Translations under genes and position numbers: made by a program
Assembly: GCA_017935245.1 (NCBI GenBank)
Contig: JAGBHZ010000015.1
Location: forward strand, 1-52,343
Direction: 5' to 3'
DNA: 52,343 nucleotides
DNA from: Alphaproteobacteria bacterium
Lineage (GTDB): Bacteria > Pseudomonadota > Alphaproteobacteria > Rs-D84
Shown here: positions 1-14,538 of the stretch, piece by piece
How positions within the stretch are numbered: position 1 is the stretch's first letter
Layout: the number at the start of each line of letters is the position of its first letter
Notes under the pieces: model-generated
Databases searched by the model: none
Told to the model about the DNA's origin: nothing
The model's input: the letters and a program-made list of their open reading frames with translations, nothing else

Positions 1-203
1 ATCGCTGTATCTGCCTTACCTAAAGACGCCTGAACTGTCGAATCCAACATTGTCTTTGTAACTGTACCGTCCCCAATTGACTGCATCGCTGTATCTGCCT
101 TACCTAAAGACGCCTGAACTGTCGAATCCAACATTGTCTTTGTAACTGTACCGTCCCCAATTGACTGCATCGCTGTATCTGCCTTACCTAAAGACGCCTG
201 AAC
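1..203 (-). repeat. 84-bp perfect tandem repeat inside the coding region
   Basis: Bases 1-84 and 85-168 are identical and a third unit matches over 169-203 before diverging. The period is 28 codons, so gain or loss of a unit keeps the reading frame. The array probably continues to the left of the window. Confidence 0.97.
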
Positions 204-566
204 ATCCGATGCCAACTTGCTCTTTTCAATTCCTGCATTTGCTGCGATACCAGCATTTGTGATTTCACCAAACGCGGCGGCTACCTTACCATTTTCCTGC
301 GAAACAGAAACAATCGGTTTTCCTGCTGCTGTAACAGTGTCCAAATCCAATTCTGCCAAAATACCACTTTCCCCAGAGATAGCTTCAATACGCGAATCCA
401 AGTTTTCAACCGCACCAGTCAGGGTTTTATTAACCAACCCAGAAACATAAGTCGATGCCGACACATTACCAGTTTTGCTGTCAACATATGTTGTTGACGC
501 GATATCTGCGCGTGCCGCCGATACGGCCATCATCGCAACCAAAGATACTGTTAATAGTTTTTTCAT
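1..566 (-). CDS. secreted repeat/coiled-coil surface protein, partial
   Basis: Leftward gene starting at 566 and running off the left edge, so its C-terminus is missing (about 188 residues seen). It begins with a classic signal peptide (MKKLLTVSLVAMMAVSAARA) followed at once by the family motif DIASTTYVDSK. The rest is Ala/Thr/Ser-rich stalk-like sequence, ending in a 28-residue unit (DNA period exactly 84 bp) that repeats without change at the window edge and contains TVTKTMLDSTVQASLGKADT. A purine-rich ribosome site (AAGGAAGG) lies 5' of the ATG. The neighbours to the right up to 5670 have the same plan: signal peptide, A-S-x-x-Y/W-V motif, then stalk. Role unknown; likely exported to the cell surface or periplasm. 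It could also be described as phage-tail-fibre-like or trimeric-autotransporter-stalk-like, but no membrane anchor is visible because the end is absent. Confidence 0.8.
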   Translation of the reverse strand, partial: MKKLLTVSLVAMMAVSAARADIASTTYVDSKTGNVSASTYVSGLVNKTLTGAVENLDSRIEAISGESGILAELDLDTVTAAGKPIVSVSQENGKVAAAFGEITNAGIAANAGIEKSKLASDVQASLGKADTAMQSIGDGTVTKTMLDSTVQASLGKADTAMQSIGDGTVTKTMLDSTVQASLGKADTA

Positions 567-678
567 TTTTCCTTCCTTTTTTTTAGTTTTTTTGTTTTTT
601 TAGTTCAATCTGTCCAATCAAACCCATTTATGCCGGGCACCCCAAATACCCAACACTATTTTCACGCGTCCCCAGGAT

Positions 679-1728
679 TTATTCCCCAGTACCACGTTCA
701 ATCACTTCCCATGCGTATGCCGATTTACCTTCTGCGTCTGTACCATATACCAACACGCATTTTGCCTCTGGATTTCCACACGCAACATCCGGCGTTGTAA
801 TTTTCTTGGCTAAATCCTCGGTCAGGCCGGTAATCTTCTCCTGTTCTACGGACTCAATCTTGTCATTTGTAACGGCACCGTCTTTAATCTTATCACCGGT
901 TACCGCATTATTCTTCAATTGCGCCGTATCAACCGAATTTTCAGCCAACATCGCCTGCGTAATTGCGCCGGTGATAATTGACACAACATTGTTTTCGACT
1001 TTAATCGCTTCCGACCCAGACAATTTATCCTGTTTCTTGTTAATTTCGCCGGTCAACACATCCGACGCCGCTGTAATCTGACTTGCAACCGATGTTTCAC
1101 CAACCAAGGCTTCGACCGCGGCAATTGCAGCGACATTTTCACCAATTGCGGTGGCATTATTCGTAACATTTTGATTTGTTGCATTCAACGATTCAATCGT
1201 CGCATATGTCGTCCCCAGGTTCAAACCCGCGATCGCATTTGAAATCTGGGTCGCAACGGCGGTTGTACCAACCAAATCACTTACCGCTTGTAAATCAGAC
1301 TGCGCCGCCTTGGCCGCCAGGTCTGTTGTCAAATTTGCGATTTTTGATTGCGCAATTGCGGCATCATCTGCAACCTGGGCATCCTTAATAGAACTTTCAT
1401 ATGCCAACGTTCCCAAATTACCCATTTCACCAGTTGTGATTTCGGCAACATACTTAGAAATCGCAGACACAGACGGATACAACACATCCGACCCCTTGTT
1501 AGTTTCTGTAATTTCTGTAGTTTTGTTATCTTCTATTGTCTTAACACGATCGGCCAAACCCGAATCCGCCGATTCCAATGCAGAAATTTTTGTATTATAA
1601 TCTGATTGTGCAACCTTGGTATCCAATTGTTGTTCAACCCATTTGGCCGACGCGACGGCCGCATCGGCAGCATTCGACGCACACAAACCCAATAAAACCG
1701 TGAAAATTCCAGCAGTTAATTTTTTCAT
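679..1728 (-). CDS. secreted coiled-coil/repeat surface protein
   Basis: 349 residues. N-terminal signal peptide (MKKLTAGIFTVLLGLCASNAADA) followed by AVASAKWVEQQLDTK, the family's conserved start of the mature part. The body is Ala/Thr/Asn-rich heptad-like sequence with repeated pieces such as AVTGDKIKDGAVTNDKIES, resembling stalk repeats of fibre proteins. The C-terminus has a Cys pair (VACGNPEAKCVLVYG) and a late Trp, a tail shared with the next paralog. No transmembrane segment apart from the signal. One of five similar leftward genes; each has its own ribosome site and this one has a promoter at 1758-1787. Function is unknown; secretion and an extended shape are inferred from composition only. 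Confidence 0.8.
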   Translation of the reverse strand: MKKLTAGIFTVLLGLCASNAADAAVASAKWVEQQLDTKVAQSDYNTKISALESADSGLADRVKTIEDNKTTEITETNKGSDVLYPSVSAISKYVAEITTGEMGNLGTLAYESSIKDAQVADDAAIAQSKIANLTTDLAAKAAQSDLQAVSDLVGTTAVATQISNAIAGLNLGTTYATIESLNATNQNVTNNATAIGENVAAIAAVEALVGETSVASQITAASDVLTGEINKKQDKLSGSEAIKVENNVVSIITGAITQAMLAENSVDTAQLKNNAVTGDKIKDGAVTNDKIESVEQEKITGLTEDLAKKITTPDVACGNPEAKCVLVYGTDAEGKSAYAWEVIERGTGE

Positions 1729-1757
1729 AGAATATTCCCTTTCCTTCCGATATTCCT

Positions 1758-1787
1758 ATTCTATCATTTTTCCCCGAATCGTGTAAA
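1758..1787 (-). promoter_or_regulatory. promoter for the 679-1728 gene
   Basis: Leftward -35 TTTACA (1782-1787), 18-bp spacer and -10 TAGAAT (1758-1763). The spacer starts with CGATTCGGGG, the GAWTCG core found in other promoters here. Confidence 0.6.
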
Positions 1788-1807
1788 GGGCAAAATTGCC
1801 CTTTACA
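1782..1807. repeat. perfect 12-bp inverted repeat overlapping a -35 box
   Basis: TGTAAAGGGCAA (1782-1793) and TTGCCCTTTACA (1796-1807) with a 2-base centre. It overlaps the leftward -35 box; on the rightward strand it is followed by a T-run, on the leftward strand it is not, so it fits an operator or a 3'-end hairpin for antisense transcripts better than a terminator of the leftward gene upstream. Confidence 0.8.
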
Positions 1808-1831
1808 TAATTTTTTTAAAATCAAGAAAAT

Positions 1832-2791
1832 TTATTGCAATGGTGCGGTAATATCAACCCACTGAATAGTACCACCAATCACAGACAGAACACAATTTCC
1901 ATTCGCCTGGGCACATGCGGCCGTTGGCGCCGGAAGTGCCGCAGCGGCCTGGGTAACGGCCGTATCATATGTGGCACGCAATTCTGCGGTAATACCGGAA
2001 TTAACGGCCTTCAACTGATTTTCGGTCAATTCATCCTGCTTGCCTGCAATTGCGGTTTCATTTGCAGCGGCCTTGGCTTCTACTGCATCCATATCTGATT
2101 GCAGTGTATCAATTTCACCTTCGGCGGTTGTTACACGTTCACCCAATGCAGTTACATCAGATGCCGCAGCCTTAGTTGCAACATCGCCCTGCAATGTTGA
2201 AATCGCACCTTCGTTTGCGGTTACTTTTGCGCTGATACCATCAACCGTACCAGACAACGTATTAACATTTGCCTGAACCTTGGCTGCTTCGCCCTTGACT
2301 TCATATGTATCTGCCAATTTTAAATCTGTAATAGCGGATGAAATCTTTGCGGCAACCGAGCCTTCACCAGTACCGGTCATTGCCGTCTTCAACGAAGTGA
2401 TATCCCCCTGGGCGGTGGTCATATCGCCCTGCAACGTGTCAATATCACCTTCGGCGGTTGTCATTTTACCTTCCAGGGCTGTAACCTTTCCTTCGGCGGC
2501 GGTTACACGACCAGACAACTCTGTCATTGCACCTTCTGTTGCAATACCTGCGGTTTTTTCCTGGATATACCCAACGATATCAGTAGCGGTAATACCAGTC
2601 GGCAAAGTACCAACATATGACTGATCTGCCTTTTTCCCCAATTCGGTGGCAACGGTTGTTGTGTCGGCGATATCAACACGACCATCAACGTATGCCTTAC
2701 TTGCGATCTGGACGGCGGCCGATGCATTACCGGCAACACCCATCAAAATCACCGCCATGAAACCACTGAACATAATATTTTTAACTTTCAT
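1832..2791 (-). CDS. secreted coiled-coil surface protein (MKVKNIMFSGFM paralog 1)
   Basis: 319 residues. The signal peptide MKVKNIMFSGFMAVILMGVA is nearly the same as that of the next gene at 4085. The mature part starts AAVQIASKAYVDGRVD. Long heptad-type stretches follow, with TAEGxIxTLQxDM units repeated around residues 85-225 (for example TTAEGDIDTLQGDMTTAQGD), typical of a long parallel coiled coil. The C-terminal tail has two cysteines and a Trp (CAQANGNCVL, then IQWVDI), matching the tail of the 679-1728 protein. No anchor sequence. Likely an exported fibrous protein; function unknown. Confidence 0.8.
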   Translation of the reverse strand: MKVKNIMFSGFMAVILMGVAGNASAAVQIASKAYVDGRVDIADTTTVATELGKKADQSYVGTLPTGITATDIVGYIQEKTAGIATEGAMTELSGRVTAAEGKVTALEGKMTTAEGDIDTLQGDMTTAQGDITSLKTAMTGTGEGSVAAKISSAITDLKLADTYEVKGEAAKVQANVNTLSGTVDGISAKVTANEGAISTLQGDVATKAAASDVTALGERVTTAEGEIDTLQSDMDAVEAKAAANETAIAGKQDELTENQLKAVNSGITAELRATYDTAVTQAAAALPAPTAACAQANGNCVLSVIGGTIQWVDITAPLQ

Positions 2792-2858
2792 CTTTTTTTC
2801 CTTTCGTTTTATTTATGCCATTGCCCACGACGGTGATTGGCATGTTTATTTATTGTTA

Positions 2859-4085
2859 TTATTGTTGTGCCTTACCTATGACGGTATCACCATTTCCATC
2901 AATAACAGATACTTCGGAATAAACAACATTACCCGAGCTATCCTTGGTTACCAGGTATGCAGAACCATTTGCCAAACCGGCATCTTCCAAGAACTGTGTA
3001 TCGGCCTCTGATTTGGTGTAATAGTTGTTCAGGTCCGCATCATCAACCTTACCATTCAATACCGATGTCACTTCGCCTTTGTAGGTATTCAATGCTTCGG
3101 CGGCATCTGTACCAGCCTTCTTCGCTTCTGCAATTGCTTCGGCATTTACTGTTTGTTGGAACGTAGTAAATGTTGCCGCTGGCAGGGCTAGATCTGCTGT
3201 TGCTTTTGCTGCATCTGCAACGTCGCTAACCGCATCCAATTCACCATCGGTTGCATATCCGGCCAATTCTGACTTGGTTGCATATGTTGCCGCAATACCC
3301 GTGGTTTCATTGGTCCATCCATCAACCGTCGTTTGCAATGATTCTACATCAGACGCGGCCGCTTTTTCACCCAACGCTGTATTCAAACCTGTAACCTGGC
3401 TCATTGCAATATCTGCATTTCCGATTGCTGTGGTTACATCGCCCGCGGTCTGATAACCCATGCCTGACAATGCCTCTGATGTTACATAAGCACCCAATGC
3501 TGTTTTATCTGCTTTGCTTGATTGCAGTCCTGTAATAGCCTGAGCATTTGCCGTAATATTTGCTTCGTTCGCACTTACACGACCCGCCAATGCATTATGT
3601 TCAGCATCCGTTGTATATCCTTCTAATGTTGTTGTTAACGAGGTATTTGTTACCTTATCAGAAACCGCATCTGCAATTGCTTCGGCAACTGTTGTATCCG
3701 CTGGCAAACCAACCATCGCTTCTTTCAAATCAGAAACATCATTTGTCAATGTTGCAACACCATCGGCATCACCCAACGTATCGATAACATCTTTGATACC
3801 CGCAACTTCTTTTACCAACCCGCCTTCGGCATTACCAATCGTTGTTTCCAAATTCGTTACTTTCTGACTCAACGCAGAATCATTATATTCATACGTCGAA
3901 GAAATCGTATTTGTTGTTGGGTCAATCGCGATATTTGTACCCGCGGTCAGTGTATCTTGTTTCTTGCCTAATTCGGTGGTAACAAATTCTTTACTGGCCA
4001 AGACGGTTGCTGCATCGGCTGCGCCACATGCGCCGGCCAAAACCGCCGCCATAAAGCCACTGAACATAATATTTTTTACTTTCAT
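2859..4085 (-). CDS. secreted coiled-coil surface protein (MKVKNIMFSGFM paralog 2)
   Basis: 408 residues. Signal peptide MKVKNIMFSGFMAAVLAGAC, almost identical to its neighbour at the DNA level too. The mature part begins ATVLASKEFVTTELGKKQDTL, and the LGKKQD/GKKAD element is shared with paralog 1. Composition is Ala/Thr/Asp-rich with many short helices and turns; there is no lipobox or second membrane segment. The tail (SAYLVTKDSSGNVVYSEVS) corresponds in position to the paralogs' tails but lacks the Cys pair. Gap to the previous gene is 67 bp with a clear AAGGAAA ribosome site. Role unknown; family membership is well supported. Confidence 0.8.
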   Translation of the reverse strand: MKVKNIMFSGFMAAVLAGACGAADAATVLASKEFVTTELGKKQDTLTAGTNIAIDPTTNTISSTYEYNDSALSQKVTNLETTIGNAEGGLVKEVAGIKDVIDTLGDADGVATLTNDVSDLKEAMVGLPADTTVAEAIADAVSDKVTNTSLTTTLEGYTTDAEHNALAGRVSANEANITANAQAITGLQSSKADKTALGAYVTSEALSGMGYQTAGDVTTAIGNADIAMSQVTGLNTALGEKAAASDVESLQTTVDGWTNETTGIAATYATKSELAGYATDGELDAVSDVADAAKATADLALPAATFTTFQQTVNAEAIAEAKKAGTDAAEALNTYKGEVTSVLNGKVDDADLNNYYTKSEADTQFLEDAGLANGSAYLVTKDSSGNVVYSEVSVIDGNGDTVIGKAQQ

Positions 4086-4179
4086 TGTTTTTTCCTTTCT
4101 TTCGTTTTGTTTTTTGTTTTGCGGGTTTTATGCCGCGGTTTTTCTTTTTCAGAATCCCAAATGATTACATATCAACGAC

Positions 4180-5670
4180 TTATTCAACCGCATATGCAAC
4201 CCATGTTAATCCCCCATTACCATCGGATACCAACATCGCCAATTCACCATCCAACAATGGTTCCGCCAGGCCATCCGTCGTCAATTTTTCCGCCGTAATT
4301 GATTTATCCGCAATCTTGGCGGCAATCATTTCCGATGTTATTGAATTTGACACATATGATGAAACCTGGTTCGTTGGAACGTAATTTTCCAATTCGCTTA
4401 TGTCGGCCTTGTTCGTTTCCAATGCGGCAATCGCATCGGCATTGGTGTCAATATCCTTGGCATTTTGTTCAATCGCGGCGGCATTACTGGTCGTATATTC
4501 CAACAATTCGTCATAATGGTCTTGAACCGTTTTTTCCAATGCCGCAATCAGTTTTGAATTCTCTTCGGCCATTAACTTAATCGCACCAACCGATTTTGTA
4601 ATACGTTCGTCCAACGCATCAATTTCCGATTCTGTATAGTAAATATCGTTAAAACGAACAACACCACCAACACCACCATCAACCAACCATTTCAATTCAT
4701 TGGTGGCTTCATCGAAACTAATTTCTACTTCGCCCACGGTAACATCGGCAATTTCTTGTTTAATCTTGGCCATGTCCAAGATAATCTGGTTCGCGGCATT
4801 AACCGACGCATATTCACCTTCGATAATCTTGTCCTGTTTGCCGGCCAACAATAACGCATTGTTATCAACATCCGTACGCAATGTCGCAACCGATGATTCC
4901 AGTGTCGAAACCGCCGAATTTATCGCACCAACCAACAACTGTAAACCTTCTACGGTTTCGGCATCGGCAATTTCGCCATTACCCAATTTTTCCGCAATAG
5001 ATGATACACGGGAATCCAAACTGCTAATCGCGGCATCAACAACCGTTTTATCCGCAACATCATCCGGCAGTTCCGCAATCAATTCATCAATCTTTTTGAT
5101 ATCTGTTTCAATCGACAAAACCATTTCCTGGACCGTGGCAAAATCTTCGCCATCAACCATCGTATCAACACGCGCAACCAACGCGTCTATATCCTGGCGC
5201 AGGCCCGAATCCCCAATCGCACCAATAAATTTTTCCAAATCAACAATACGACTCTGTAAATTACCAAATTTATCATTGGTTACAAAATCCATATTTTCAT
5301 CATCTGATGGTTTATTCGTTGATGATGAACCCGCCGCAACAACACGATGTGGCAAATATTTACCAATTGACAAACGTGGCGATGTCGCCGCGCGCGTCGC
5401 CGTTACCGTACCACCGGCCGCACCGGTTGTGGTTGTGGAACCGCTTGCCGCGTTATTTGTCGTCTTGGACGATGTCGGCAGAACACGCAACGCCCCCGCA
5501 CGGGTTGATGCCGACGCGGCCGATTTTGATGCCGACGCACTGGACGCGCTGTTATACGTGCCGGCCCCACCCAGCACACGTACCGGCGCCGCAGAAATTG
5601 CCGGCGTCGCCACCAGCGTGCACAACGCACAGATTATTGCCAATTTTGATGTTTTTGTTTCGGTTTTCAT
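4180..5670 (-). CDS. secreted Ser/Ala/Thr-rich coiled-coil surface protein
   Basis: 496 residues, largest of the five. Signal peptide (MKTETKTSKLAIICALCTLV) ending at ISA, then APVRVLGG and a low-complexity Ser/Ala/Thr/Gly region to about residue 105, then long heptad-like helices (about 130-300 and 350-440) and a C-terminal tail LAMLVSDGNGGLTWVAYAVE resembling the other family tails. The piece SITSEMIAAKIADKSITAEK is the same kind of K-[IL]-x-D-x-[SA]-[IV]-T unit as in the 679-1728 protein. First gene of the leftward group, with its own promoter at 5692-5721. Probably an exported fibre; function unknown. Confidence 0.8.
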   Translation of the reverse strand: MKTETKTSKLAIICALCTLVATPAISAAPVRVLGGAGTYNSASSASASKSAASASTRAGALRVLPTSSKTTNNAASGSTTTTGAAGGTVTATRAATSPRLSIGKYLPHRVVAAGSSSTNKPSDDENMDFVTNDKFGNLQSRIVDLEKFIGAIGDSGLRQDIDALVARVDTMVDGEDFATVQEMVLSIETDIKKIDELIAELPDDVADKTVVDAAISSLDSRVSSIAEKLGNGEIADAETVEGLQLLVGAINSAVSTLESSVATLRTDVDNNALLLAGKQDKIIEGEYASVNAANQIILDMAKIKQEIADVTVGEVEISFDEATNELKWLVDGGVGGVVRFNDIYYTESEIDALDERITKSVGAIKLMAEENSKLIAALEKTVQDHYDELLEYTTSNAAAIEQNAKDIDTNADAIAALETNKADISELENYVPTNQVSSYVSNSITSEMIAAKIADKSITAEKLTTDGLAEPLLDGELAMLVSDGNGGLTWVAYAVE

Positions 5671-5691: not shown

Positions 5692-5721
5692 ATAATACCA
5701 CATTTTGCGAATCGGGGTCAA
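5692..5721 (-). promoter_or_regulatory. promoter for the 4180-5670 gene
   Basis: Leftward -35 TTGACC (5716-5721), 18-bp spacer beginning CCGATTCG, -10 TATTAT (5692-5697). Confidence 0.65.
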
Positions 5722-5743: not shown

Positions 5744-6448
5744 TTAGAACTTATAGCGAATACCCAACGCGAACGAATTTTCCCAAATCCATCCAATATC
5801 GTTGGTCATCATATAACCATCGCTGAACATACGTTTGTGTTCGGTCCCCATAAATGTCGCCAGACGATATCGTAAATCCAGCGCCAATTGTTCATCCAAA
5901 TCATATGACCAACCAAACATCAGCGCGAACATCGGTGAAATACCACGTTCACTGCGATCACCATCGGCAAAGAACACATTATCTAATTCGGTCTTTGGCA
6001 ATGCGATACCCAATCCAGCACCAGCATACCAACCATCACGCAACCAACCGTCTGTAAAATCATAGTATGCATTTGCAATCAAATATGGCACGGTCATTTT
6101 GAATTCAAAGCCTTGGTCCTGGTCAGAAAACCGGCCCAACATCCCACCTTCGACTTCGCCACGCCAAACCATATCAAACGCGGTAAAGTTCGCACCGGCA
6201 TAGATATTGCCACCAAAAATCGTTTCAAACGAAAATTCGTCCTTGGAACTGGCCGCCAATGCCCCTGGATCGCCACCATAATCATATTCGTTTGTCCAAC
6301 TTAACATATTCAGTGCAACACGGCCACCAATATACCAATTGGAAAATTCAAAACCATTGCCACCATTATTCGGCATCGCAACCGGTGCCGCATTGGCCAT
6401 GGACGTTGCCATGATTGACAATAAACCAAATGTCGCTAATTTTTTCAT
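5744..6448 (-). CDS. outer-membrane beta-barrel protein
   Basis: 234 residues. Signal peptide MKKLATFGLLSIMATSMANA; mature protein rich in aromatic residues with alternating strands (for example NWYIGGRVALNMLSW, GWYAGAGLGIAL, LDLRYRLATF) and a C-terminal phenylalanine in SFALGIRYKF, the recognition signal for BAM-dependent insertion. The length and pattern suit an eight-stranded OmpA/Omp25-like or opacity-type barrel. It lies alone between the surface-protein cluster and ftsE, with its own TATAAT promoter. Substrate or partner unknown. Confidence 0.85.
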   Translation of the reverse strand: MKKLATFGLLSIMATSMANAAPVAMPNNGGNGFEFSNWYIGGRVALNMLSWTNEYDYGGDPGALAASSKDEFSFETIFGGNIYAGANFTAFDMVWRGEVEGGMLGRFSDQDQGFEFKMTVPYLIANAYYDFTDGWLRDGWYAGAGLGIALPKTELDNVFFADGDRSERGISPMFALMFGWSYDLDEQLALDLRYRLATFMGTEHKRMFSDGYMMTNDIGWIWENSFALGIRYKF

Positions 6449-6474
6449 GAAATACTTCTCCCTTTTTTTCCTAG

Positions 6475-6503
6475 ATTATACCAAAAATCGCCCCCCGTTC
6501 CAA
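6475..6503 (-). promoter_or_regulatory. promoter for the outer-membrane barrel gene
   Basis: Leftward -35 TTGGAA (6498-6503), 17-bp spacer, -10 TATAAT (6475-6480). Confidence 0.7.
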
Positions 6504-6540
6504 ACAGAAAAAAAATATCAAATGCATTTTTTTATTTCAT

Positions 6541-6569
6541 TTGACGGAATAAAAAAAATTTACTAGGCT
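6541..6569 (+). promoter_or_regulatory. possible promoter for ftsE operon, near-leaderless
   Basis: -35 TTGACG (6541-6546), 17-bp spacer, weak -10 TAGGCT (6564-6569). The expected start of transcription is at or next to the ATG at 6577, and no purine-rich ribosome site precedes that ATG. Confidence 0.45.
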
Positions 6570-6576
6570 TTTTCAC

Positions 6577-7356
6577 ATGGAAGATAATACCGCAATTTCA
6601 TTTGCAAACGTCGCCGCCCAGTACGACGGAACCCCCGAAATATTAACCGACGTATCGTTTAATATTGGTGGTGGCTCGTTCTATTTTTTATCGGGTGCGT
6701 CGGGCGCGGGTAAAACAACACTACTGCGATTAATATACCAATTACACAAACCATGTCGCGGTATGATTAAGTTATTTGGAAAATCAACAAATGAAATGAC
6801 CCGCGATGAAATTAACAAAATTCGCCAGAAAATGGCAATTGTTTTCCAGGAATATTCATTACTGTCGCATTTGACGGTGTTTGATAATGTGGCCCTGCCC
6901 CTGCGGGTGCGCGGCGTGCCCGAAAACAAGATAAAACCCCTGGTGGCCAAGGTGCTGGATTGGGTTGGCCTGGGGAAATACGCAGACGCAAATCCAAAAT
7001 CACTGTCCGGCGGCCAACAGCAGCGTGTATCCGTTGCCCGCGCAATTATTATTCAGCCATCCATATTATTGGCGGACGAACCATCGGGAAACCTGGACGA
7101 TGAAAATGCGTCCCGCCTGATGGACCTGTTTATCAAAATGAACAAGACATTTGGCACAACAATCATACTGGCAACACATAACAAGAAATTAATGGAAACC
7201 TATAAATTTCCGGTAATCAGTGTCGAAAACCATCGCGTATCATTTGTTGGTCAAAAAACGGCACAAACCGAATCGAAAAAGATATGGAAAGGACCCAAAC
7301 CACAAAACTATTTTACCGAACTGTCCAAACAATTTGATGATATTGGAAACGCATAA
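6577..7356 (+). CDS. ftsE: cell-division ATP-binding protein FtsE
   Basis: 259 residues, slightly longer than typical FtsE (about 220-230). It powers the FtsEX complex, an ABC-type system that does not transport but activates peptidoglycan hydrolysis at the septum from the inner face of the membrane. Visible ABC motifs: Walker A GASGAGKTTL (about residue 40), Q-loop VFQEYSLLSHLTVFDNVALP, signature LSGGQQQRVSVARA, Walker B ILLADEPSGNLD, and H-loop ATH. The extra length is a Lys-rich tail of about 35 residues after the H-loop. The stop codon abuts the ftsX start, so the two are coupled. A lipoprotein-type LolD is the main alternative by sequence, but the ftsX neighbour settles it. Confidence 0.93.
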   Translation: MEDNTAISFANVAAQYDGTPEILTDVSFNIGGGSFYFLSGASGAGKTTLLRLIYQLHKPCRGMIKLFGKSTNEMTRDEINKIRQKMAIVFQEYSLLSHLTVFDNVALPLRVRGVPENKIKPLVAKVLDWVGLGKYADANPKSLSGGQQQRVSVARAIIIQPSILLADEPSGNLDDENASRLMDLFIKMNKTFGTTIILATHNKKLMETYKFPVISVENHRVSFVGQKTAQTESKKIWKGPKPQNYFTELSKQFDDIGNA

Positions 7357-8196
7357 ATGAAAAAGGCAACTGTATTTTCACTGGTTCGCGAACAATCTAT
7401 GTTTATGACGATAATCATGGGATTGTTGACATTTTTATCTGTGTTGGCATTGGGGATTGCATTATCAATTGGCACAGGTGTTGTACGCTGGAATACCCAG
7501 TGGGATAACTTTGCCACAATCCAGGTTACCGATTCGAAAAATATCGACACTGTTACAAAAATAATCGAAACGAATCGGGATAAAATGAAATCTATCCATC
7601 GGGTCAGTACTGAAAAAATGAACGAATTATTGGGGCCATGGATATCAAACGGCGGAAATGCGTTGAAAAACTATCTGCCGACGATGTGGGAAATTGAATT
7701 TAATTCGGCCCCAGATATGGCATCTGTTCAAACCGCGGTTGAAAAGTCTGCACGCTTTTTATCGCATGCATCGGCATTAAAAAATTCAACATCGGCCGGC
7801 TGGAAAATGATTGCGATATCCGTGTTTATTTTGATATTGGCACTGGGGGCAATTGGTATATCTATTTCATATATTGCGCAAAATACGGCGATGTTGCATA
7901 AACGCGAACTGGAAATTTTGACCCAGATTGGTGCGTCTGATGAATTTGTTGCCCGCCAAATGCAGATTATTGTTGCAAAAATCGCCGCCATGGCCACAAC
8001 ATGCGGATTTATTGCCGCGACACCGGTTTTATTACTAATATTGTCGGTTGCACATTCTGCGCGTGTTGGATTAATGGCAATGATGGGATTGACTGGATAT
8101 GGATGGATTGCATTGATATCCATGCCAATATTAATAATAGTATTTGCAATTATTGTAACCCGCCGCACAACATTAAATATTTTAAAAGCCCAATAG
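7357..8196 (+). CDS. ftsX: cell-division protein FtsX
   Basis: 279 residues. Membrane partner of FtsE. One N-terminal membrane helix (about 17-40), an extracytoplasmic domain (about 45-145), then three helices (about 150-172, 205-232, 245-270), the usual four-helix FtsX/permease plan. The segment before the second helix and the charged MLHKRELEILTQIGASDEF stretch, where FtsX/MacB permeases contact the ATPase, are present. The ATG directly follows the ftsE stop. The periplasmic domain presumably recruits a hydrolase activator, but none is encoded nearby. Confidence 0.9.
   Translation: MKKATVFSLVREQSMFMTIIMGLLTFLSVLALGIALSIGTGVVRWNTQWDNFATIQVTDSKNIDTVTKIIETNRDKMKSIHRVSTEKMNELLGPWISNGGNALKNYLPTMWEIEFNSAPDMASVQTAVEKSARFLSHASALKNSTSAGWKMIAISVFILILALGAIGISISYIAQNTAMLHKRELEILTQIGASDEFVARQMQIIVAKIAAMATTCGFIAATPVLLLILSVAHSARVGLMAMMGLTGYGWIALISMPILIIVFAIIVTRRTTLNILKAQ

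Positions 8197-13563: not shown

Positions 13564-14538
<975 letters not shown>

Follow-up and report, generated by a model that had tools for sequence, protein, structure and literature searches.

A conserved cassette of putative secreted stalk proteins in alphaproteobacteria of the order Rs-D84

Among the closest described systems to the locus reported here are the trimeric autotransporter adhesins (YadA/BadA), with which its proteins would have several features in common: export, a probably trimeric state and a long coiled-coil stalk of variable length. However, the C-terminal YadA_anchor barrel that defines the type Vc systems is absent, and short hairpin caps stand in its place; Pfam searches gave no YadA anchor match in p2-p5 or anywhere in the genome, the E. 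coli control being positive. A second set of parallels is offered by phage tail fibres and needles (P22 gp26, the fibre families of PHROGs and collagen-like minor tail proteins), which present comparable heptad coiled coils as well as repeats of the SKLxxDVQxSL and DGAVTxxKI types common to the cassette stalks, with collagen segments appearing in relatives of the cassette. Against this, the cassette proteins have signal-peptide-like starts, a chromosomal site devoid of phage genes and end modules of their own. Bacterial collagen-like surface proteins are matched by the Pfam collagen repeats of class A and E relatives, whereas p1-p5 have none. With the fibrillar adhesins the likeness lies in the long stalks, though no Pfam family, adhesive domains included, passes the cut-off in p1-p5; many members of that group also lack a known anchor (PMC8286594). 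Finally, the Lpp/alanine-zipper outer-membrane lipoproteins are likewise Ala-rich envelope coiled coils, but matches to them are sub-threshold, and the cassette proteins are several times longer, end differently and show no visible lipoprotein signal. By analogy, the cassette would work like the trimeric stalk adhesins, using building blocks in common with phage fibres and lacking both anchor and phage context.

The window, that is, the whole stretch of DNA analysed, is an entire contig of 52,343 bases from a 0.9-Mb genome in 18 contigs (estimated 92.5% complete), the source of which is probably Candidatus Enterousia of the order Rs-D84. At its left end are five consecutive minus-strand ORFs, p5-p4-p3-p2-p1 in reading direction (Table 1), in agreement with the five adjacent leftward genes of an earlier note made from the sequence alone; p1 is open at the contig end and short because the contig ends within an exact 84-bp tandem repeat. 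Beyond the barrel gene that heads the row, the opposite strand encodes an FtsE/FtsX-like pair, a DUF218 protein and an acyltransferase; the FtsX-like permease is named from its look and position, the ATPase alone having a Pfam match.

Table 1. Positions in the window of the stalk protein genes, their predicted signals and their neighbours.
Feature	Position	Strand	Basis
p1, class D stalk protein, incomplete, at least 188 aa	3..566	-	ORF extends beyond contig; class D relatives occupy this position elsewhere
Exact 84-bp (28-aa) in-frame tandem repeat in p1, SKL..DVQASLGKADTAMQSIGDGTVTKTML, 2.4 copies	1..203	-	Assembly stops inside the repeat
p2, class C stalk protein, 349 aa	679..1728	-	ORF; class conserved in other genomes
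p2 C-terminal cap, Cys pair and W hairpin, ending CVLVYGTDAEGKSAYAWEVIERGTGE	682..804	-	Profile A3, E 2.5e-13 (p2 itself in profile)
Predicted p2 promoter TTTACACGATTCGGGGAAAAATGATAGAAT	1758..1787	-	One of two pattern matches genome-wide
p3, class B (Cys-pair type), 319 aa, putative heptad coiled coil	1832..2791	-	ORF; periodicity; gp26 similarity; AF2
p3 C-terminal cap, Cys pair and W	1838..1942	-	Profile A3, E 2.8e-13 (p3 itself in profile)
p4, class B (no Cys pair), 408 aa	2859..4085	-	ORF; signal peptide nearly that of p3; BLAST E 1e-15
p5, class A stalk protein, 496 aa	4180..5670	-	ORF; class A invariant columns
Predicted p5 promoter TTGACCCCGATTCGCAAAATGTGGTATTAT	5692..5721	-	Other of two genome-wide pattern matches; region conserved in relatives
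Outer-membrane beta-barrel gene, cassette head	5744..6448	-	PF13505, E 1.2e-8; adjoins class A in relatives
FtsE/FtsX-like ABC ATPase and permease, fixed cassette flank	6577..8196	+	ABC_tran E 6e-33 (ATPase); synteny

Each of the five proteins opens with a signal-peptide-like segment and continues into an Ala/Thr-rich stalk, both as claimed in the earlier note. Its proposed common start, A-S-x-x-[YWF]-V, is present in four of them, as ASTTYV in p1 (which begins MKKLLTVSLVAMMAVSA...IASTTYVD), ASAKWV in p2, ASKAYV in p3 and ASKEFV in p4; p5 departs from it, with a mature start APVRVLGGAGTY, an RLSIGKYL motif and the tail LAMLVSDGNGGLTWVAYAVE. The N-terminal modules are of the A-S-K-x-Y-V-D type in classes B-E and SVRxLGGxGTY...RLSIGKYL in class A, where the R, GG, GTY and RLS.G.YL columns are invariant or nearly so across 19 proteins. 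The stalk unit K-[IL]-x-D-x-[AS]-[VI]-T, put forward as another common element, has just two exact occurrences, KIKDGAVT (p2) and KIADKSIT (p5), the 28-aa unit of p1 being related to it. As for the claimed tail with a W and, in some, a Cys pair, the W is found in p2, p3 and p5 and the Cys pair in p2 and p3 only; p4 lacks the W, and the p1 C-terminus lies off the contig.

The paralogy asserted for the five is strong by plain BLAST for p3/p4 (E 1e-15 and 7e-19), but weak or not significant for other pairs. As a hold-out test, class B alone was used for a profile, which finds p2 (E 5e-6) and p1 (E 9e-5) and recovers all 27 class C, eight of ten class D and 15 of 22 class E relatives, and never class A, to which p5 belongs. 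Of 398 'decoys', 32 were also picked up by this profile, some of them at least being unclassified members, so part of the hold-out signal is that of the signal peptide; further, the N-terminal profile gives weak scattered matches in some relatives, those read being mostly other secreted families with a similar start, and the decoy counts are hence inflated. On the sequence evidence, what ties p5 to the other four is where it lies, the type of its stalk and its tail, the end of which, LVSDGNGGLTWVAYAV, is similar to that of a class B ortholog (L041), LVTSDGNGGLSWTSIEV.

Pfam, NCBIfam and PHROGs contain no model that names any of p1-p5, the matches being sub-threshold ones of coiled-coil or phage-fibre-like character. 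A match to a well-described family, which the earlier note had held out as the result that would tell against it, was thus not obtained above threshold in these profile searches, and its view of secreted stalk proteins or fibres of no named family is supported. A PDB sequence search returned nothing for p2, and the cap profile gave no match there at a meaningful E. Nor did we find a description of these stalk proteins in the literature.

The stalks display a hydrophobic periodicity of about 3.5 residues, which none of 100 shuffles attains for p3 or p5 and one in 100 attains for p4 and p2; it is weak in p1. In p3 the heptads give a match to gp26, the trimeric tail needle of the P22 type (E 1e-8), and the repeat stretch of p1 matches the phage minor-tail family phrog_2012 (E 5e-10). 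Collagen (G-X-Y) repeats are found in class A and E relatives and exceed the PF01391 cut-off in two of them (class A of L052 and class E of L059), while none exceeds it in p1-p5. In one relative (L058) the collagen run comes almost directly after ASKSYVDNLVSG. Collagen helices are trimeric by nature; hence, a trimer-capping function is most likely for the N-terminal module. Given the resemblance of p3 to the trimeric P22 needle and the collagen repeats in orthologs of p5 and of class E, trimeric fibres are likely. The single-chain AF2 models of p2 and p3, whose overall pTM is low (0.25 and 0.29), both consist of long helices followed by a C-terminal hairpin, a beta hairpin at residues 323-343 in p2 (pLDDT about 86) and one at residues 300-313 in p3 (pLDDT about 90). 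Foldseek found no confident match for either model in PDB, nor for that of p2 in BFVD; the best VIA-align Z was 5.1, a score that is uninformative for long helices.

Profiles and gene neighbourhoods from about 30 genomes reveal a syntenic cassette with the order barrel - A(p5) - B(p4,p3) - C(p2) - D(p1) - E. It is flanked on the left by acyltransferase - DUF218 - FtsX-like - FtsE-like genes, joined in many relatives by a gene for an OmpA-family lipoprotein (PF00691, E 5e-18), and on the right by VTT-domain - RbfA - LepA genes. The window proteins p1-p5 match classes D, C, B, B and A in this order, with the class-specific ends and the site on the barrel/FtsEX-like side; the lipoprotein gene is absent from its cassette-side place in the window, and the contig ends short of the RbfA/LepA side. 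Class B is represented by one to three genes and class D is optional; a cassette has four to six stalk-protein genes. Class E, sought with its cap profile, was not found in the window's genome as assembled, to the extent of its 92.5% completeness and with the RbfA/LepA side off the contig. The cassette extends throughout the genus and into other genera of its family (L056, L057 and L058), with a more divergent version in L059. In an order-wide sample of 201 genomes, the N-terminal profile matches 141, the class E cap 107 and the Cys/W cap 88, the last all in one family; in a class-wide sample of 385 genomes, the Cys/W cap is confined to four of the same genus, including the window's own.

Stalk turnover between species is fast. 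A WEVIxR-type cap ends all 27 class C proteins, and IWVE or a close variant all 22 of class E; as class E was assigned by that end, only class C provides an independent check of class-specific caps. For pairs of the same class, mean identity amounts to 0.38-0.57 in the N-terminal 48 residues and, in the C-terminal 40, to 0.40 in C, 0.46 in E and 0.22-0.29 in A, B and D; that of the stalks is 0.29-0.35 against 0.26 for shuffled stalks, and whole proteins range from 119 to 948 aa across species and classes. In terms of sequence, the N-terminal ends and the C and E caps are kept, whereas the stalks drift nearly to the shuffled baseline between species. From their fixed order and class-specific ends, the classes would seem to have different jobs in one structure or coat.

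We propose, with roughly even confidence, that these are lineage-specific, Sec-exported trimeric fibres that would form outer-membrane fibrils binding partner cells or gut material, surface location and adhesion being inferred. Briefly, we advance the following mechanism. The signal-peptide-like starts would direct the stalk proteins through Sec, upon which they would trimerize via the coiled coil, as with collagen in the relatives. Each fibre would comprise a short N-terminal module, a stalk of free length and a short class-specific C-terminal cap; the stalk might be built of coiled coil, phage-fibre-like repeats or, in relatives, a collagen triple helix, and the cap would either be a beta hairpin containing W, in many cases together with a Cys pair, or end in ...ATIWVE. 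Placement at the outer membrane, perhaps through the neighbouring barrel, is speculative, as is contact with partner cells or gut material, a suggestion guided by the proposed partner dependence of the Enterousia lineage, which has lost much of its metabolism (PMC12306168). No contact apparatus for this lineage was found described in the literature. That 0.9-Mb genomes so divergent have retained this cassette at a single site, with its own promoter element, makes it a concrete candidate for the means by which these bacteria meet other cells; its end modules are short enough for use as markers, and its stalks provide an example of evolution by the swapping of coiled-coil, phage-fibre-like and collagen segments between fixed ends. 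A more far-reaching version, which we regard as doubtful, is that of a previously undescribed multi-protein surface fibre system of reduced-genome gut alphaproteobacteria. It would hold partner cells by means of four to six trimeric stalk proteins whose end modules match and which are made of parts recruited from phage fibres and collagen, expressed from dedicated twin promoters and anchored perhaps through the barrel of the cassette.

The main weakness of the surface reading is that no anchor was found in the proteins: there is no YadA anchor, no barrel by Pfam and, by eye, no lipobox or transmembrane tail, consistent with the earlier note, which had seen neither membrane anchor nor barrel in them. 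The lack of an outer-membrane anchor or dedicated exporter would sit well with the leading alternative, unlikely in our view, that the proteins serve as structural rods of the periplasm or envelope and, with the barrel and the OmpA-like peptidoglycan-binding lipoprotein, link the membranes or keep them spaced. This lipoprotein and the barrel do adjoin the cassette in relatives, and FtsEX-like neighbours act in the envelope; yet, the lipoprotein gene is missing from that place in the window, and the wide range of lengths and the near-complete drift of the stalks between kept ends are not what membrane-spacing rods would lead one to expect. Moreover, if the p5 stalk (433 aa) were coiled throughout, it would by our arithmetic, at 0.15 nm per residue, measure about 64 nm and exceed the usual periplasm. 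The missing anchor, together with conserved short end modules around a stalk of free length, as needed for end-to-end or co-assembly, could also indicate secreted, unanchored matrix or glue proteins assembling end to end outside the cell; with no dedicated exporter found in the cassette, we consider this improbable. We give an equally slim chance to an antigen-variation locus, in which interchangeable surface-protein cassettes recombine to evade immunity or phages. The paralogous array, the turnover of repeats, including the exact in-frame 84-bp ones of p1, and the strong divergence of stalks between species might speak for it, but paralogs within the genome are not near-identical, and species and genera agree in their gene order and class-specific ends. 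Such fixed classes argue against shuffling antigen cassettes, and kept ends with drifting stalks fit fixed roles with free stalks better than they do interchangeable antigens. The comparison with variable surface antigens made in the earlier note, taken to mean interchangeable or phase-variable cassettes, is not supported: about 30 genomes have, at a single locus, orthologous classes in a set order, each with its own ends. Although stalk motifs recur in phage tail-fibre families and the P22 needle, a prophage or tailocin remnant with tail fibres is highly improbable and largely refuted by synteny, given the signal-peptide-like starts, the fixed site between housekeeping genes in many species, the single weak match (to p2) among 50,697 phage records and the lack of phage structural genes beside the cassette in the window or in relatives' neighbourhoods.

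The outer-membrane fibrils that we favour would be expressed from two units, p5-p4-p3 and p2-p1, driven by promoters with a common CGATTCG spacer element. On the coding strand, the best sigma-70-like sites precede the barrel gene, p5 and p2, but shuffled sequences have at least as many promoter-like sites overall, so that little can be read from the scan by itself. Likewise, CGATTCG by itself is common in the window (28 occurrences against 8 expected), and thus only the full pattern is informative: TT[GT]AC-N(1-3)-CGATTCG-N(4-9)-TGnTAnnAT, in which TT[GT]AC is followed by the spacer element and an extended -10 box. In the window's genome it matches twice, before p5 and before p2, and nowhere else. 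Twenty relatives yield 18 matches in 15 genomes, with none for the reversed control; 17 of them stand upstream of called genes of class A, C or B, at a distance of 18-46 bp, and the remaining one (in G139) falls between the barrel gene and a class A gene that has been called with an internal start. Across 14 genomes, conservation of the promoter region of class A is plain to see. From these patterns, p5-p4-p3 and p2-p1 look like two transcription units under common control. A hairpin of 12 pairs is situated between p3 and p2.

Collagen triple-helix repeats are present in relatives' stalk proteins of cassette class A or E, at four loci (Table). At the window's own left end, an exact 84-bp tandem repeat (1-203) forms the contig terminus; the remainder of p1, the truncated class D stalk gene, and any class E gene are either absent from the assembly or lost. 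At the cassette head, the gap between the barrel and FtsE-like genes (6449-6576) lacks the OmpA-family lipoprotein gene which many relatives carry there, an absence shared with L034 and L054.

A signal peptide followed by a [VT][TA]S[KL]xYV start is also found in dispersed secreted-protein families of relatives (Table), with about 28 matching places in a single genome, G131. In most of the G131 matches inspected, the N-terminal half is constant and the terminus reads ...YIPQNQ; their C-terminal domains differ strongly from one another, some being similar to EYIESDGHQWIDTGI lectin-like sequences.

Collagen repeats and secreted-protein families in relatives
Feature	Location	Context	Profile match
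Collagen repeats	L058 8903-9298	Class A or E stalk protein	
Collagen repeats	L059 8311-9528	Class A or E stalk protein	PF01391, E 2.5e-29
Collagen repeats	L056 9789-10148	Class A or E stalk protein	
Collagen repeats	L052 6485-8497	Class A or E stalk protein	
Secreted families, [VT][TA]S[KL]xYV start	L061-L069	Genome G131	
Similar secreted families	L060, L070-L077	Genomes G094, G130, G115	

The heptamer CGATTCG not only forms part of both cassette promoters but is also in excess across the whole window (28 observed vs 8.2 expected from dinucleotide shuffles).

Elsewhere in the window, the only secretin (PF00263) detected in the genome adjoins a TcpQ-type pilus biosynthesis gene (PF10671; 35707-38321), and this adjacency suggests a type IVb pilus or an export system of a related kind. 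Finally, while Rs-D84 genomes have been reported to lack fructose-bisphosphate aldolase (PMC12306168), the window encodes, at 13582-14538, a member of the class II fructose-bisphosphate aldolase family (PF01116, E 1e-93).
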